Assembly: GCA_003216465.1 (NCBI GenBank)
Contig: QCIU01000006.1
Location: forward strand, 68,967-104,230
Direction of reading: 5' to 3'
DNA from: Prochlorococcus sp. AG-402-N10
GTDB taxonomy: Bacteria > Cyanobacteriota > Cyanobacteriia > PCC-6307 > Cyanobiaceae
DNA: 35,264 nt
A program made the position numbers and the translations under genes. Positions 16,965 through 23,141 of this stretch are shown in pieces (position 1 is the stretch's first letter; every line of letters begins with the position of its first letter). Below the pieces are notes generated by a model. The model was not told where the DNA came from. It worked only from the letters and a program-made list of their open reading frames with translations, and did no database searches.

Positions 16965-18038
16965 TTACCTGAATCCCTTTGAAAAGGAACTAGTACGTAC
17001 TTTAAAATTCCAAACGGTTACAACACCCTTTGCATTAACCGCTGCTAAAGCACAGTCGTCGGGTCTCCAAGCAATATCTCCAACTAAATCTCCAGCAAAA
17101 GCAGCCCCAACAGGATCACCATTTCCATCGTTTTTAAGAAAACTAGCTACGACTGAACCATCTCTTGATCCAGAGGCAACTAACAACCCTTTGTTAGAAA
17201 AAGCTAGGCTAGAAATTGGTTCAGTATGATGACATAATTCTCCAGGCATAGTTCCTTCAGGGCCATTACCTGAAAAACTCCACACAGTAATTCTTTCACT
17301 ACCACTAGTTGCTAGTAGCATGCCAGTATCGTCAAATGAAAGGTGAGAAGGCTTCCCTGGATAACCCGTCATTTCAGCATCAAGTCCAGTTGATCTACGC
17401 CAGAAATGTACAGAATTATCTTGACTGCCACATGCGACTATATCTCCATCAGGGCTTAACTGCATCGAAACTAGTGAACCTTGCCATTCAAGTTTCTGAT
17501 TGGTTTTTTTATTTGCTACATCAAAGAAGGTTACTCGTCCATAGCATGCAGTTGCTAATTCATTTTTATTCGACCATGATATCGCACTTACTGTACTTGG
17601 ATGTTCTTCTGAAACCCATTCTTCAGTACCATCTTGATTAAAAACATATACTTTTTTGGAAAAAGCTATGGCCAAATATAAACCGCCATTTGACCAACTT
17701 AAATGTTCTACCCAACCTTTACCAAGTTTAATGACTTTAATTTCTTCGCCATTATTGCAATTCAATATGCGAACTATTCCATCTTGTCCAGAAGTTGCAA
17801 AAATCTCTCCATTTGGATGGATAGACATTGCAAGAAGACCTCCAGAATGAGCTTCATCTTTTTTCCAAATAATTTTACCTGTATCTCCTTCGAACCCATA
17901 AAGTCCTCCTCCTACATCTCCGACAATAAATAGTTTTCCTCCTAATGCCCAACCACAAACTATTGCATAATCATCAACTTCAGCAGACCATCCTTCATGA
18001 AACATGCCTCTGGGACTAAATGGCTCTATATCAGGCAC
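16965..18038 (-). CDS. WD40-repeat beta-propeller protein, linked to zinc cluster
   Basis: The 357-residue protein consists of WD40-type repeats throughout (for example LLAMSIHPNGEIFATSGQDG, VSMQLSPDGDIVACGSQDN, ISSLAFSNKGLLVASGSRDG, IAWRPDDCALAAVNAKG), enough for one seven-bladed propeller. No enzymatic domain or signal peptide is seen, so it is probably a cytoplasmic protein-interaction scaffold. The start is GTG, 13 bp inside the end of the upstream GTPase gene, with AGAGGG about 9 bases before it; an ATG at codon 12 (18005) is an alternative. Overlap with the COG0523 GTPase strongly suggests a shared role in zinc handling, which is inference from context. Confidence 0.85.
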   Translation of the reverse strand: MPDIEPFSPRGMFHEGWSAEVDDYAIVCGWALGGKLFIVGDVGGGLYGFEGDTGKIIWKKDEAHSGGLLAMSIHPNGEIFATSGQDGIVRILNCNNGEEIKVIKLGKGWVEHLSWSNGGLYLAIAFSKKVYVFNQDGTEEWVSEEHPSTVSAISWSNKNELATACYGRVTFFDVANKKTNQKLEWQGSLVSMQLSPDGDIVACGSQDNSVHFWRRSTGLDAEMTGYPGKPSHLSFDDTGMLLATSGSERITVWSFSGNGPEGTMPGELCHHTEPISSLAFSNKGLLVASGSRDGSVVASFLKNDGNGDPVGAAFAGDLVGDIAWRPDDCALAAVNAKGVVTVWNFKVRTSSFSKGFR

Positions 18039-19384
18039 TTATCAAATCCCTCTTGCATCTCTTTTTCATCAAGGTTTCTGCCAATAAACACGAGTTGATT
18101 TCTGCGTGGTTCATTACCCCATTCTTTATCTGGCTGGGCAGTAAATAGCATATGAACCCCTTGAAAGACTATTCGGCGTGGGTTGCCAGAATAACTAATA
18201 AAACCTTTTGTCCTGAATATATCAACCCCTTTCTCAGAAAGAAGTCTTCCCATCCAAGTATTTAACTTTTCAGGATCAACATCTCCAAAACGCTCTATTG
18301 CGATTGATCCAACTTCGTCATCATGTTCATGTTCTGCCACCCAGTTTCTTTCTGTTTTAAAAGGAATTTCCTTTACTTTATTTTGGCTATCTATTTTCAG
18401 CAATTTCATATTGAATTCTTCAGCAGTATGTTGTGTAAATAATCCAATTTTTGAAGATTTTTCAACCTCTAAAATAAAAGATTTAGGTCCTTTTTCTTCC
18501 AATTTAAGACTCACATGCTCATCATATGGAATGGTATTTCCAGGTTCTAAGTTTTTCGCTTTTTCTGCATAAAGTCTTACAGATGCTTCGGCTCCCTCTT
18601 TTAATTCTTCCTCGCTAAATCCTTGATTAGCAAAAGCTACTAATGACATCTCAGGATCAGGGCCTTCTTCAAGTTTTAATTCATGTTTCCCAGGCTCAAG
18701 CTCATAAACTCCTGACCACTCAAAAGGGTATTCAGGTTCTAAAAAAGTTGGTCTACGCTTTAGAATTTGGTCAAGATCAAATGCGCTAAGATTCAAAACT
18801 GTATCTATTGGGACTTGGGCATTTTCCGCTCGAATAATTCTAGTCATTCGATTCATGTCTCTCAACCTTGATTCCAGGCTGTCAAGAGCTTCATCAGAGA
18901 CTAAATCAGTTTTATTCAGAACTAAAACATCTGCAAATGCTACTTGTTCTGAACTCTCATCACTCCTTCCTATCTGTTGATCTATATGAGCGGCATCAAC
19001 TAATGTAACTATTCCATCAAGTGTGAATTCAGAACTGATTTCTTCATCCATAAAAAATGTTTGAGCAACTGGACCAGGATCTGCTAATCCAGTAGTTTCA
19101 ACTAAAACATAGTCAAATTTATCCCTTCTTTTCATCAGATTACCAAGGACTCTAATAAGATCGCCACGAACAGTACAACAAATGCAGCCATTTGACATTT
19201 CAAATACTTCTTCATCGGCGTTTATAACCAGTCCTTGATCAATTCCAACTTCTCCATATTCGTTCTCAATTACAGCGATTCGCTTACCATGCTCTTCGTT
19301 TAATATTCTATTTAGTAGAGTCGTTTTGCCAGAACCAAGAAATCCAGTCAGGATTGTCACAGGTACTTTTTCGTTAGTACTCAT
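18026..19384 (-). CDS. COG0523/G3E-family GTPase (CobW-type zinc chaperone) with inserted domain
   Basis: The 452-residue protein is a metallochaperone-type GTPase: P-loop GFLGSGKTT at 14-22, the metal-binding CxCC motif at C67, C69 and C70, and NKTD at 157-160. A CobW C-terminal domain spans about 345-450. Between them, about residues 218-335, lies an extra domain not found in ordinary CobW proteins (FEWSG at 221-225, DPEM at 243-246, FTQH at 316-319, EEF at 322-324), clearly similar to an insertion in the neighbouring ZnuA. A His/Asp patch (EHEHDD, 351-356) follows. By family and neighbourhood it should deliver zinc to client proteins under zinc limitation. It overlaps the WD40 gene by 13 bp. 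Confidence 0.9.
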   Translation of the reverse strand: MSTNEKVPVTILTGFLGSGKTTLLNRILNEEHGKRIAVIENEYGEVGIDQGLVINADEEVFEMSNGCICCTVRGDLIRVLGNLMKRRDKFDYVLVETTGLADPGPVAQTFFMDEEISSEFTLDGIVTLVDAAHIDQQIGRSDESSEQVAFADVLVLNKTDLVSDEALDSLESRLRDMNRMTRIIRAENAQVPIDTVLNLSAFDLDQILKRRPTFLEPEYPFEWSGVYELEPGKHELKLEEGPDPEMSLVAFANQGFSEEELKEGAEASVRLYAEKAKNLEPGNTIPYDEHVSLKLEEKGPKSFILEVEKSSKIGLFTQHTAEEFNMKLLKIDSQNKVKEIPFKTERNWVAEHEHDDEVGSIAIERFGDVDPEKLNTWMGRLLSEKGVDIFRTKGFISYSGNPRRIVFQGVHMLFTAQPDKEWGNEPRRNQLVFIGRNLDEKEMQEGFDKCLI

Positions 19385-19397
19385 AAATCAATTAATT

Positions 19398-19434
19398 TAA
19401 AAAAAAATGTCTAATAAAAACATATTAGACATTT
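19398..19434 (-). terminator. Rho-independent terminator of znuA
   Basis: On the minus strand, downstream of the znuA stop, a 10-bp stem (AATGTCTAAT paired with ATTAGACATT, 8-nt loop) is followed by a run of nine T. It ends about 15 bp before the start codon of the GTPase gene, so the GTPase needs its own promoter or read-through. Confidence 0.75.
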
Positions 19435-19442
19435 ATTGATAA

Positions 19443-19457
19443 TGAAAACCGTTATCT
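19443..19457. promoter_or_regulatory. Weak candidate Zur-type site upstream of the GTPase gene
   Basis: The sequence TGAAAAC-C-GTTATCT is an imperfect 7-1-7 inverted repeat with five of seven pairs matching, just after the znuA stop and about 60 bp before the GTPase start. It resembles Fur-family boxes, but similarity to the clear box at 20999-21015 is limited. The terminator hairpin between it and the GTPase start makes its role doubtful. Confidence 0.2.
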
Positions 19458-19467
19458 ATAGAAAAGT

Positions 19468-20976
19468 TTAATTTTGAAGAGAATTCCAGGTGCCTTCAAG
19501 TTTAGAGCCAGCTTCTTTATCACATGATCCACCTAATGAATTAACAATAGTACATGTATTATGAACTGCGACTGATACTGTATTCCCTGTCATCATTAAT
19601 CCATCAACAAATATTTGATTAGAAGCTAAAGGAACTGAACTTTGTCTACTCAAGTTTTTTAATAACTTAGAAGCTGGTATTTGTTCAGGAAATATTGCCT
19701 TAACATTTTCTTCATCAAGCATCTTCAACGTTGATTGAATATTGTCTGGTCTTAGACTTGATGAGTCACCAAGAAAATCTAGTAAGCTAATAGTCTCAAA
19801 TCCAAAAGCATCGCCGTAATATTCCATTGCTTTGTGTTTAGATACAATAACCCTGTTTGATTCTGGAATTGTTGAGACCTGCGCAACAATCCAGCTATCA
19901 AGTTCTTCTAGTGTTGAATCTACTGAAGCAAAGCTCGCATTGATTGATTTCCTGTCCGATCTATTAAAAACAGAGATATCTTTCTTTAAACTTTTACTTA
20001 CAACTTCTCCCATTTTTATAATGTTATGAGGATCATGCCAAACATGAGGATCTAATCCTCCGTGATCATGGTGGTGGTGTCCCTCGCCTTCATCTGGAAC
20101 TTGTGCAATTGGTTCAACATCGCTATTAGATAAATCTTTAAAGAAGTGTTCGTCGGCTTCAAACTCAAAAGGCATATGTTCAGTGAAGAAGGTATATTGG
20201 CCATCTTTCTCAATTTCTATATTAAATACTGTACTCTCCTTCCCTTGATCAAAATTAAGAACATAGGCTTTATTACTAGCTACAAGAGTCCCATTATTTT
20301 TTTTATTTATTGATTTCTTAGAACCTAATAGTTCTTTAGCAAGTTCTTCAGAAGATTCAATATCATTCGATTCGAGAATCACCATTTTCATGGCTGGATC
20401 TGCATATTCTCCACCTACCTTTGCGAATGACCACTTGTAGGAGCCTTTAGAGAGTTTAAATTTGCCTGCCCATTCAAATGATCCTTCTGCATGATCATCA
20501 TGTCCGGCGTGATCATCATGGTCGTCATGTCCATCATGATCATCTACTTTTGCTGCGGAGTGATCATCATGGTCATCATGCCCACCATGATCAGAGTGTT
20601 CATCTACATCTATAGCACTTACACCAATTACAACAGTTTGAGGCTTACCCTCCCAATTTTTCATGCTTGGGGTCATCTCTTTCCCTAGAGTAAAAACTTT
20701 ATCTGCACTGTTAAGTAATTGAGCTTGTCTTGGAGTGATTTTTAAGTCATGCACATCTTGTTTTCTTTCAACCAAACAGGTTACTTTATCAGAGGGTAAG
20801 GCAATAGATTTAACTAAATCGCAAGTGAGTGGCTCTACAGCTACATATGATTTTTCTTTGGCTAAAACATCTGGAGCAGCTGTTGATATTAATACAGTTC
20901 CAGCTAATAAAGTGTTTTTTAAAACAGAATGATTAGATTTCTTATTATTAAAAATTACTTTTTTAAAAATTGACAT
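19468..20976 (-). CDS. znuA: Zinc ABC transporter substrate-binding protein ZnuA with inserted domain
   Basis: ZnuA captures periplasmic zinc for the ZnuBC importer. The 502-residue protein is far longer than the usual roughly 310. It has a signal region (residues 20-40), a first ligand H76 in QDVHDL, a very long His/Asp-rich loop (126-162), then an inserted domain (about 166-282: FEWAG at 167-171, DPAM at 193-196, FTEH at 264-267, FEFE at 270-273), a second His stretch (HHHHDHG, 300-306), and the conserved DPHVWHDP with H311. H381 in SKHKA should complete the site. The inserted domain matches one in the adjacent GTPase. The gene diverges from znuC across a palindromic Zur-type box, so repression by Zur when zinc is replete is likely. 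Confidence 0.92.
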   Translation of the reverse strand: MSIFKKVIFNNKKSNHSVLKNTLLAGTVLISTAAPDVLAKEKSYVAVEPLTCDLVKSIALPSDKVTCLVERKQDVHDLKITPRQAQLLNSADKVFTLGKEMTPSMKNWEGKPQTVVIGVSAIDVDEHSDHGGHDDHDDHSAAKVDDHDGHDDHDDHAGHDDHAEGSFEWAGKFKLSKGSYKWSFAKVGGEYADPAMKMVILESNDIESSEELAKELLGSKKSINKKNNGTLVASNKAYVLNFDQGKESTVFNIEIEKDGQYTFFTEHMPFEFEADEHFFKDLSNSDVEPIAQVPDEGEGHHHHDHGGLDPHVWHDPHNIIKMGEVVSKSLKKDISVFNRSDRKSINASFASVDSTLEELDSWIVAQVSTIPESNRVIVSKHKAMEYYGDAFGFETISLLDFLGDSSSLRPDNIQSTLKMLDEENVKAIFPEQIPASKLLKNLSRQSSVPLASNQIFVDGLMMTGNTVSVAVHNTCTIVNSLGGSCDKEAGSKLEGTWNSLQN

Positions 20977-20998: not shown

Positions 20999-21015
20999 AA
21001 AATGATAATCATTTT
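20999..21015. promoter_or_regulatory. Zur/Fur-type operator (perfect 8-1-8 palindrome)
   Basis: AAAATGAT-A-ATCATTTT is a perfect 17-bp palindrome between the divergent znuA and znuC genes, 22 bp before the znuA start and 100 bp before the znuC start. It closely resembles cyanobacterial Zur boxes built on TGATAATnATTATCA-like sequence, and the Zur gene is in the same cluster. One operator could therefore govern both genes. Confidence 0.75.
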
Positions 21016-21115
21016 CATAAATAATGGCAATATTTGGTATCAATTGTTATGAAATAAGTATGGATTCCTTAATATTGATAAAATAAAGTTCTAACTGATT
21101 TAAATATATTATTTA

Positions 21116-21886
21116 ATGGCTACTTTAATTGCAGATAATTTAACTTATTCTTATTCAAAAAATAGTAAACCAGCTTTAAACAAAGTATCAGTTGAAATAA
21201 CACCAGGAACTCTAACAGCTCTTGTTGGACCAAATGGAGCTGGCAAATCTACACTTTTGAAATTATTGCAAGGAATAAATAATCCTGATATTGGAAATAT
21301 AACTATTGATGGGCAAAGTTTAGCTAGAAATAGATCCCAAGTTGCACTTATGCCACAAAGAAGCTCAATGAATTGGAAATTTCCTATTACAGTTGAAAAA
21401 TTAATTTCTTTAGGCCAAATAAAATATTCGAAATCAAAAAGTGCTAATCCATTCCAAATAAAAGCTCTTCTCGCAAATCCTAAGTCTTGGGTTAACAAAT
21501 GTTGTGAATTAGAAGCAACAATGCAACGAGTTGGAATTTCAAATCTCGCAAATAGAAGACTTGATTCTCTTTCAGGTGGACAGCAACAAAGAGCTCTTTT
21601 GGCTAAAACTTTAATGTCTCCTGCAAGAATTCTTTTATTAGATGAACCATGTGCTGCATTAGATCCTCCCGCAAAGGATGATTTTCTTAAGACAGTCCGT
21701 CAACTTGCAGATGCTGGCTTGTCTTTGTTTATAAGCAGTCATGATTGGGGTTCAACTCTCAATAATTATGATCAGGTAGTAGTTTTAGATAAAACAGTAT
21801 TAGCATCCGGAACTCCTAGTTCAATACAAGGTAAATTAGATGATCTTAATATTAGTTCTTTAAAAGAGAATAATTATTGTGATTAA
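21116..21886 (+). CDS. znuC: Zinc ABC transporter ATP-binding protein ZnuC
   Basis: This is the cytoplasmic ATPase subunit of the zinc importer. The 256-residue protein has Walker A GPNGAGKST (about residues 38-46), the ABC signature LSGGQQQR (about 156-163), Walker B ILLLDEP with the catalytic Glu, and a switch His in ISSHDW. It is divergent from znuA and separated from its membrane partner znuB by the oppositely oriented zur gene. A 14-bp gap separates it from the convergent zur stop. Confidence 0.92.
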   Translation: MATLIADNLTYSYSKNSKPALNKVSVEITPGTLTALVGPNGAGKSTLLKLLQGINNPDIGNITIDGQSLARNRSQVALMPQRSSMNWKFPITVEKLISLGQIKYSKSKSANPFQIKALLANPKSWVNKCCELEATMQRVGISNLANRRLDSLSGGQQQRALLAKTLMSPARILLLDEPCAALDPPAKDDFLKTVRQLADAGLSLFISSHDWGSTLNNYDQVVVLDKTVLASGTPSSIQGKLDDLNISSLKENNYCD

Positions 21887-21900
21887 AAATATGTTTAAAC

Positions 21901-22299
21901 TTAACTCTGAGCTTGATAACAGTTTTGGCAAAGTCCGAAATATTCAAGCGTATGAAATAAAAATTGAAATTTTTTTGGATTTTTCTTGGGACTATGAATA
22001 TCTTTTACCGGACAACCTTCCATTTTGGAGGTTTCTCCACATTGAACACATGTCAGGTGGTGAATATCTCTATCAACTGGTGTGTAAAGGACTTCTCCAG
22101 TTGGAAGATGTCTAGATCGAATTAATCCATGCTTTATAAGAACTTGAAGATTTCTATAAACTGTTGTCAAACCCATGGATTTGCCATCAATTATCAATTG
22201 TCTATGCAATTCTTGACCGCTCAATTCATCTTCACTTTTTTTAAGCTCTTCAAGAAGTTGCTCTTGTCTTTGGGTAATTTTTGGCTTCGCTACCATCAT
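21901..22299 (-). CDS. zur: Zur, Fur-family zinc-responsive repressor
   Basis: This is a Fur-family regulator, called Zur because it sits inside the znu genes. The 132-residue protein has a winged-helix DNA-binding domain (recognition helix TTVYRNLQVL at 45-54) and a dimerisation/metal domain with the structural zinc cysteines in two CxxC pairs, C84/C87 and C124/C127, plus H80 and H81. The start is placed at the first of two consecutive ATG codons (22299 or 22296); a TTG two codons earlier is less likely. It lies antisense between znuC and znuB. Binding to the 20999-21015 palindrome under zinc-replete conditions is expected from the family. Confidence 0.88.
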   Translation of the reverse strand: MMVAKPKITQRQEQLLEELKKSEDELSGQELHRQLIIDGKSMGLTTVYRNLQVLIKHGLIRSRHLPTGEVLYTPVDRDIHHLTCVQCGETSKMEGCPVKDIHSPKKNPKKFQFLFHTLEYFGLCQNCYQAQS

Positions 22300-22352
22300 T
22301 TTCAAGATCTATTAATGTCCTGTATTTTTGATCATAACGAATCATACGAATA

Positions 22353-23141
22353 ATGTCTTTTATAAACAGTTGGTGGTTAATTCCTTTAATAATTACTATT
22401 TTCTCAGGAATTTTATGTCCAGCTATGGGAACTGTTTTAATAACTCATAGAAGATTATTACAGGTAAATTTAATTTCTCACTGTGTTTTACCAGGACTTG
22501 CTCTAGCTTTGGCACTAGGGATTCATCCGTCAATTGGAGGAGTTATTAGTGGCCTACTAGGTTCAATTATTGCAGAAAGTTTAACTAATAAAAAAAGTGA
22601 AAATTACGAAGCGGTAATGAATACTATGCTTGCTGGAATGCTCGGTTTCGGAGTTTTACTCATTCCACTTCTTGGGATAAGAATTGATTTAGAGGCAGTA
22701 TTATTTGGAGATTTATTAACTGCTAACCTTAGTGATTTGTTAAGAACAATCATTGCTTTTTTAACATTTATTTTATTGATAACTTTTGGATATGAAAAAG
22801 TTGTTTATGTCGGATTAGATCCAGAGGGGGCTTCTGCCAGTGGAATAAATGTCTCTTTATTAAACCTAGCTCTAAGTTTTACTACTGCACTAGTTATAGT
22901 AAGTTCGATGTCAGCAGTGGGCGTTATTCTAGTAATCGCTTTATTATCAACACCTACTTTATTAGGCCTTGATAAGGCACAAAGTCTTAGGATCGCGATG
23001 ATGAGATCTTCATTCTTTGGCCTTTGTATTTCTCTATTGGGTTTTATTCTTTCAATTGTTTTTAACTTATCTCCTGGTCCTGCTATAAGTGTTATTTGCG
23101 TTGCTTCATTAATAATTCCAAAAATTGGAAATAAATTCTAA
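22353..23141 (+). CDS. znuB: Zinc ABC transporter permease ZnuB
   Basis: This is the membrane subunit of the zinc importer (ABC-3 family). The 262-residue protein has about eight hydrophobic segments and family blocks GTVLITHRRLLQVNLISHCVLPGLALA near residues 26-52, AVLFGDLL near 114-121 and the glycine-rich AVGVILVIALLSTPTL near 189-204, the cytoplasmic coupling region. It starts 53 bp from the divergent zur start, so it has its own promoter or is read through zur antisense. A TGAT-N8-ATCA sequence (22329-22344) in that gap is a weak potential Zur site. Confidence 0.92.
   Translation: MSFINSWWLIPLIITIFSGILCPAMGTVLITHRRLLQVNLISHCVLPGLALALALGIHPSIGGVISGLLGSIIAESLTNKKSENYEAVMNTMLAGMLGFGVLLIPLLGIRIDLEAVLFGDLLTANLSDLLRTIIAFLTFILLITFGYEKVVYVGLDPEGASASGINVSLLNLALSFTTALVIVSSMSAVGVILVIALLSTPTLLGLDKAQSLRIAMMRSSFFGLCISLLGFILSIVFNLSPGPAISVICVASLIIPKIGNKF

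Follow-up and report, generated by a model that had tools for sequence, protein, structure and literature searches.

Bacterial zinc supply has the binding protein ZnuA at one end and COG0523 proteins at the other, and it is an open question how the latter acquire and hold their metal. A review describes that the His-rich loop of ZnuA raises the zinc available near the cleft (PMC8786288). The separate partners ZinT and AztD are reported to hand zinc to ZnuA or AztC beside the flexible loop, and the same source terms the precise function of COG0523 proteins enigmatic (PMC6689063). Haas et al. 2009 noted that the genes of COG0523 subfamily 5 are grouped with those of WD40 proteins and with znuABC, and named the GCxCC motif of COG0523 proteins (PMC2770081). 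In this study, we analysed a stretch of 35,264 nucleotides, hereafter the window, from Prochlorococcus sp. AG-402-N10 (assembly GCA_003216465.1, contig QCIU01000006.1, positions 68,967 to 104,230 of the forward strand), which encodes both a ZnuA and a COG0523 GTPase. We found that the two proteins harbor the same inserted segment, a real and widespread domain common to ZnuA and COG0523 GTPases and unnamed in the libraries searched.

The original prediction, made from the sequence of the window, had delimited the segment in both proteins by matching blocks. Its coordinates proved exact by translation and all of the named blocks were found: FEWAG in ZnuA against FEWSG in the GTPase, DPAM (193-196) against DPEM (243-246), EEL in both, and FTEH against FTQH, followed by FEF and EEF, respectively. 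The two segments (Table 1) could be aligned over most of their length. A BLASTP comparison of the whole proteins gave the segment pair an expectation value (E) of 3e-6 (29% over 114 columns), the next-best local match having an E of 2.0. The local BLOSUM62 score was 92, and none of 5000 shuffles of one segment scored as high (mean 30.9, standard deviation 5.6, best 75); as a control, other segments of ZnuA and the GTPase scored 25-45 against either domain. When the 37 ZnuA-type and the 44 GTPase-type copies were aligned separately and compared as profiles, the match had a probability of 99.7% and an E of 8.5e-26 over 106 columns. The BLASTP, shuffling and profile results rule out chance similarity, and sequence comparison at these three levels shows the segments to be homologous, that is, of common ancestry.

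The domain interrupts the family layout of both hosts, as had been noted beforehand. It splits the Pfam match of ZnuA into two stretches, the better one covering residues 278-478, and it sits between the cobW and CobW_C matches of the GTPase. A search of the window's own genome at E 10 matched only these two proteins; a second PF01297 protein of this genome (G000:C2:140768-141556, an open frame of 329 aa) is without the insert. No family was above the cut-off in Pfam (proteins and segments), NCBIfam (whole proteins) or PHROGs, in line with the earlier statement that no named family covers the segment. The PDB sequence search gave insignificant matches only (best E 0.74, 0.057 and 1.3), and a known family under another name was rejected on these results. 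The ZnuA segment had a sub-threshold match to CBM35 (PF16990; 13.1 bits against the 28 needed, E 0.12), and the GTPase segment had none. ZinT did not match at E ≤1 in Pfam (proteins and segments) or NCBIfam (proteins; the best 25 of 26 families for the GTPase). A lineage-specific low-complexity expansion was also ruled out, as the domain is predicted to be globular and is present in many phyla. The literature search on COG0523, ZnuA and zinc genes gave no earlier naming of such a domain in the portions of the articles that it covered.

AlphaFold2, run on each isolated domain with the alignment of its own subfamily, gave mean pLDDT (predicted local distance difference test) values of 90.2 and 89.8. 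The order of elements is the same in both models, namely three strands and a helix followed by six strands in ZnuA, or by five strands and a short extra helix in the GTPase. Foldseek against PDB returned no match at E ≤0.001 for either domain, and the weak lists consisted mostly of jelly-roll domains. In VIA-align, the same four SEC14-like GOLD chains ranked first for both domains, with p24 GOLD, GPR180 and CBM35 among those that came next. The best structural Z scores were weak, 4.5 (3.2 A, 82 residues) and 6.0 (3.6 A, 92 residues), and Eph receptor domains and other sandwiches scored about as high; for these reasons the term GOLD/CBM35-like is a description of the predicted fold, with no membership implied. 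The two copies are thus predicted to fold alike and share the same weak structural neighbours, which was the check proposed in the original prediction; we found neither different folds nor chance similarity, the two outcomes that it had named as speaking against a shared domain.

Among distinct open frames with at least 80 profile positions, the domain was carried by 126 COG0523 GTPases, 66 ZnuA and five other proteins, and a further set added 11 GTPases. It was placed between the host halves wherever both halves matched, and Pfam confirmed the ZnuA identity of six non-cyanobacterial proteins tested. Domain-bearing genes often adjoin zinc-uptake genes. A profile search had been expected to find the segment mainly in ZnuA and COG0523 proteins, and nearly all of the matches were of these two kinds. 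The domain was present in picocyanobacteria, where a search had been suggested, and its range is far wider, taking in haloarchaea and no fewer than nine phyla or classes of bacteria. This range came in part from a scan of a GTDB-species collection with the single pattern [FY]T[QE]H[TLM][PA][EFA]EF, to which copies without the motif are invisible. Of the 439 stretches that matched, 422 were related to the query, and the best 80 were retrieved; they came from Prochlorococcus, Synechococcaceae, Gamma- and Alphaproteobacteria, Verrucomicrobia, Spirochaetes, Myxococcota, Desulfobacteraceae, Dehalococcoidia, SAR324, Sericytochromatia and a few unplaced organisms. Plasmid records added 11 (Alicyclobacillus, Paraburkholderia, two Pantoea and seven haloarchaea). 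On a plasmid of Pantoea soli (L153), a broken short remnant of a domain-bearing GTPase gene has one internal stop; its frame is one of the five counted above as other proteins. Viral contigs and phage records contained no relative of the domain, and a viral origin was ruled out on this ground.

In total, 73 of 1626 genomes sampled over eight taxa held the domain. The cyanobacterial sample was searched with the segments at E 0.001: the GTPase segment matched in 23 of 292 genomes and the ZnuA segment in 22 of 292, 15 of them with a ZnuA-borne copy. Picocyanobacterial genomes without a ZnuA-type match had PF01297 frames of mostly ~300-345 residues, in which the segment search was empty. The other seven taxa were searched with a profile (A2) at E 1e-5, with positive genomes in Verrucomicrobia (20/194), Chloroflexota (10/151), Gammaproteobacteria (8/369), SAR324 (7/52), Alphaproteobacteria (3/230), Desulfobacterota (1/198) and Spirochaetota (1/140); the centre genome of each of these seven samples was picked as domain-bearing and is the sole match in two of them.

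The surroundings of the domain are rich in His in some of its hosts. Taking a flank as His-rich when the 40 residues on one or both sides of the domain contained at least four His, we found it in 65/65 ZnuA copies (on both sides in 57) and in 4/4 stand-alone or membrane hosts. Among these other hosts, haloarchaeal proteins (L146, L147 and L152) have a twin-arginine lipoprotein-like start and, by inspection, His-rich ends. The stand-alone copy at L147:4839-5423 lies immediately behind urease genes, and this neighbourhood hints at nickel. In Alicyclobacillus (L143:4665-5696), the domain is placed between hydrophobic stretches of an unclassified protein, the gene of which has metal-regulator and cation-transporter genes as neighbours. 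This protein may resemble NicO/RcnA-type transporters, but it matched no family in the libraries searched.

Four residues are conserved almost throughout. In 66 aligned rows, all of them strong matches, the E of FEW was kept in 65, the D of DP in 65, the H of TQH in 64 and the E of EEF in 65; one copy (L203) is without E, D and H, and another (L204) is gapped at the last two of the four positions. In the 40 rows that were free of motif preselection, the respective numbers were 39, 39, 38 and 39. We aligned 19 verrucomicrobial GTPases separately, of which one was canonical (L202), one degenerate (L203) and 17 divergent. In the divergent proteins, the E of EEF was replaced by H in 17/17, while the E of FEW was kept in all 16 that covered it. 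In 12 of them, a C-G motif took the place of TQH; five kept an H nearby. In the stretch after strand 2, where the other copies have D, 9-22 His were present in 16/16 covered sequences. The trade of acidic residues for His or Cys beside a growing His run argues for a metal site, and a structural role predicts this less well.

Taken together, we consider it somewhat probable that the segment is a transferable beta-sandwich of ~110 residues that provides metal-handling proteins with a second metal site, metal binding being the inferred part. This interpretation is drawn from the homology and same predicted fold of the copies, their recurrence in these hosts, the His-rich flanks in ZnuA, the conserved residues and the ligand exchange, and also from the operons, tandem copies, clean absence from one ZnuA, Zur-box-like site and Zur-repressed gene cluster of a Synechococcus that are described below. 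That the domain is the same in both proteins, with the same predicted fold, and that it lies in the His-rich loop of ZnuA is what the data show; zinc as the metal, and its hand-over, are put forward conditionally. The E of FEW, the D of DP, the H of TQH or TEH and the E of EEF would form one divalent-metal site at one end of the sandwich. Outside the membrane, the ZnuA copy would work with the His-rich loop in capturing Zn2+ and then deliver the ion to the His site of the cleft. Inside the cell, the GTPase copy may stand in for the His stretch of many other COG0523 proteins and hold Zn2+ between the CxCC-bearing G domain and CobW_C. Expressed from one presumed Zur-controlled operon, the two proteins would place the same kind of site on both sides of the membrane under the same condition, and the element common to both copies would be the metal and not a protein partner. 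The earlier suggestion that the His and acidic residues bind metal thus gains indirect support from the ligand exchange, and binding itself stays at the level of a suggestion. The domain is a small, expressible piece from abundant ocean cyanobacteria, with four candidate ligands and natural pairs with and without it for metal-binding tests.

Several observations weigh against this assignment. Of the 66 conservation rows, 26 were supplied by a scan whose pattern required T[QE]H and EF, and the H and the last E are conserved by construction in these rows. The degenerate verrucomicrobial copy (L203) is without E, D and H, and the verrucomicrobial alignment is uncertain, as it is based on weak and partly fragmentary profile matches. 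The conserved residues can be structural. A carboxylate-rich site is not specific for zinc, and the haloarchaeal and Alicyclobacillus neighbourhoods point to nickel or cobalt equally. The link to His-rich runs holds for ZnuA and fails for most GTPases: a His-rich flank was found in just 17/124 of them (the 40 residues preceding the domain have a median of 0 His and the 40 following it a median of 2), and the GTPase copy of the window is without one, with two His within 30 residues after the segment. The proposal that the domain always lies beside His-rich runs was dropped on these numbers. In addition, a congener (G219) has a ZnuA of 371 residues beside its domain-bearing GTPase in which the domain is absent from an otherwise intact protein, His-rich loop included, which shows that the domain is dispensable there.

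The original prediction had also proposed a common docking function, in which both copies would bind the same protein partner, or equivalent ones, and thereby organise zinc delivery. Beta-sandwiches frequently bind proteins. The ZnuA and GTPase genes are close together in cyanobacteria and in several other lineages: a verrucomicrobial operon (L066) has the order GTPase(domain)-WD40-ZnuA(domain)-ZnuC-ZnuB, an operon of SAR324 (L139) the order ZnuA(two copies)-ZnuC-ZnuB-GTPase(domain), and in Hahella (L071) a ZnuA(domain) gene and an opposite-strand cation-efflux gene are accompanied by GTPase(domain)-WD40. WD40 matches were found downstream of the GTPase gene in 22/26 loci outside picocyanobacteria, which would suit a docking partner, and in 53/53 picocyanobacterial loci; they are missing from L074, L075, L121 and L139, and some of the contigs are short. 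However, ZnuA and the GTPase are expected on opposite sides of the membrane, so no single soluble partner could serve both. By a hand tally of the 73 genomes, 20 have the domain in both proteins, and 53 hold it in one protein only (48 in the GTPase, five in ZnuA), although draft genomes may miss genes. The SAR324 locus L139 has both domains yet no WD40 match in the retrieved stretch, and the best-conserved residues include acidic residues and a His, which are swapped for other metal ligands. Docking has less in its favour than a metal-capture module; it was poorly supported by these data, and we regard it as unlikely.

About as unlikely is a structural spacer, a stable fold that would orient the flexible loop or linker, with the conserved residues serving folding only. 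The position of the domain in a loop or inter-domain linker, the high predicted confidence of its fold, its clean absence from the ZnuA of G219 and the fact that most GTPase copies have no His-rich neighbour agree with such a role. Conservation of one E/D/H/E set across GTPases, ZnuA, lipoproteins and a membrane protein is not what a spacer predicts, and neither is the exchange of E for H next to a His-rich run; in the stand-alone haloarchaeal proteins, there is nothing to be spaced. It is very unlikely that the sandwich binds an organic ligand (a sugar, a lipid or a metal-ligand complex) in place of a bare ion, as the GOLD domains of lipid-binding SEC14-like proteins at the top of the weak neighbour list, CBM35 close behind and the sub-threshold Pfam CBM_35 match of the ZnuA segment could suggest, because the Z scores are in a range that a shared general arrangement alone can give, Foldseek gave no significant match, and the same ligand would need to matter in cytosol and periplasm alike.

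Returning to the metal-site interpretation, the history of the domain was examined in an unrooted tree of few columns, built from 66 copies thinned from 260 at 85% identity. One change between GTPase and ZnuA hosts was sufficient, or three when four other hosts were included. The ZnuA and haloarchaeal lipoprotein copies cluster with a support of 92/95, which is under the program's star level, and several long branches meet in the tree. Several independent moves into ZnuA were set aside, since the tree needs one change; the few columns and the lack of a root leave the number and direction of moves undecided. ZnuA proteins with tandem copies were found in some Prochlorococcus (L013, L118, L135 and L137) and SAR324 (L139 and L195). 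An 873-aa two-copy ZnuA in G223 (L016, L026 and L062) was rejected as an assembly artefact, its exact copies being joined by unknown bases. Besides G219, three genomes (G221, G257 and G291) have ZnuA-family proteins without the domain near domain-bearing GTPases, and these look like another ZnuA type. The GTPase domains of L080, L184, L191, L193 and L194 (Dehalococcoidia, SAR324 and a gammaproteobacterium) nest within the picocyanobacterial GTPase group, and this nesting suggests gene transfer between bacteria.

A broader proposal is possible, and we advance it tentatively: the domain may be an old and unnamed mobile zinc cassette that was exchanged between the cytosolic GTPase chaperone and periplasmic ZnuA, reached many bacteria and haloarchaea, was duplicated in tandem and cleanly lost, and can swap its ligands (E to H, H to C). 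If this is true, it would be the first module known to us that gives zinc import and intracellular zinc allocation the same metal site.

The features of the window are collected in Table 1.

Table 1. Features of the window around the shared domain (positions in the window; -, reverse strand).
Feature	Position	Strand	Remarks
WD40-repeat protein gene	16965..18038	-	Pfam match; overlaps the GTPase gene by 13 bases
COG0523 (CobW-type) GTPase, 452 aa	18026..19384	-	cobW 8-184, E 6.5e-62; CobW_C 359-451, E 5e-25
Shared domain in the GTPase, residues 218-335	18380..18733	-	Candidate metal ligands E222, D243, H319, E323
znuA, zinc ABC transporter substrate-binding protein, 502 aa	19468..20976	-	Pfam PF01297, E 2.7e-42, two stretches
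His stretch HHHHDH, ZnuA residues 300-305	20062..20079	-	After the domain, directly before DPHVWHDP; by inspection
Shared domain in ZnuA, residues 166-282	20131..20481	-	Candidate metal ligands E168, D193, H267, E271
His/Asp-rich stretch preceding the domain, ZnuA residues 127-162	20491..20598	-	By inspection
Sigma-70-like promoter pointing at znuA	21002..21030	-	Consensus match only
Zur-box-like palindrome TGATAATCATTTTCA between divergent znuA and znuC	21003..21017		1 mismatch to the consensus
znuC, ABC transporter ATPase	21116..21886	+	Pfam; AztA is the best NCBIfam match, under its cut-off
Fur-family regulator, presumed zur	21901..22305	-	PF01475, E 2.1e-19
znuB, ABC-3 permease	22353..23141	+	PF00950, E 2.8e-42

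The palindrome TGATAATCATTTTCA is the sole site of the window with at most one mismatch to the Zur-box consensus. The expected number of such sites was 0.09, and 8 of 100 shuffles had at least one; with three mismatches allowed, the pattern gave 11 matches, not above chance, and was discarded. The site overlaps the second hexamer of the promoter-like site of znuA, and promoter-like matches in this region are fewer than in shuffles. In Synechococcus WH8102, a single Zur box between divergent znuA and znuC was reported to overlap their -10 elements, and synw0968-0973 around znuA, uncharacterised genes included, appear to be Zur-repressed (PMC9337993). The uncharacterised genes beside znuA in that strain would be those of the GTPase and the WD40 protein if its cluster matches the window, and the ZnuA and GTPase genes are presumed to lie in one Zur-controlled operon. 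The presumed zur had no NCBIfam equivalog above the cut-off. It is encoded between znuC and znuB, on the strand opposite to theirs, and thus splits this pair of transporter genes; 45/53 picocyanobacterial loci also had a match to it. The 13-base overlap of the WD40 and GTPase genes (18026-18038) suggests coupled translation, judging from the gene coordinates, and the WD40 protein has no visible signal peptide. On three haloarchaeal plasmids, the order is ZnuA(domain)-73-residue open reading frame-ATPase-permease; the small frame has a constant length (L144:6041-6262, L145:6056-6277 and L151:6056-6277), and the one tested had no NCBIfam match.

Compared with the described systems, the ZnuA of the window is a member of the PF01297 proteins with a His-rich loop, and its copy of the domain lies inside that loop. 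It differs from the usual members by this folded domain, the domain-free picocyanobacterial frames being mostly of the length given above. A ZnuA match was found in 52/53 picocyanobacterial loci (L078-L142 included). A review noted that its ZnuA cluster is nearly missing from Prochlorococcus (PMC8786288), and the insert may have moved the Prochlorococcus proteins to another cluster. The GTPase shares the GTPase and CobW_C domains and the CxCC motif (NGCICC in its translation, a GCxCC motif) with COG0523 G3E subfamily 5, and its neighbourhood with a WD40 protein and znuABC corresponds to the gene clustering reported for that subfamily. Its nearest solved relative is YjiA (318 aa, E 3.3e-63). 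An inserted domain is not mentioned in the passages of Haas et al. 2009 (PMC2770081) that were considered.

The GOLD (SEC14-like and p24) and CBM35 domains resemble the jelly-roll-like sandwich predicted for the domain and are the best structural neighbours of both models, whereas the scores are weak, significant sequence matches are lacking and the surroundings are different. Two other proteins were set apart by their descriptions in the passages considered: diatom ZCRP-B is a NikA-like protein of another family (PMC9010474), and Anabaena ZepA combines a beta-sandwich with a second domain of new fold and a PEP-CTERM signal (PMC10957091). A functional parallel would be to ZinT and AztD, as the domain would likewise add zinc capture and hand-over next to the flexible loop of the binding protein. 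In contrast to these separate partners, the domain is built into its host, is not a beta-propeller and gave no ZinT family match, and it is also present in a GTPase without a visible signal peptide.

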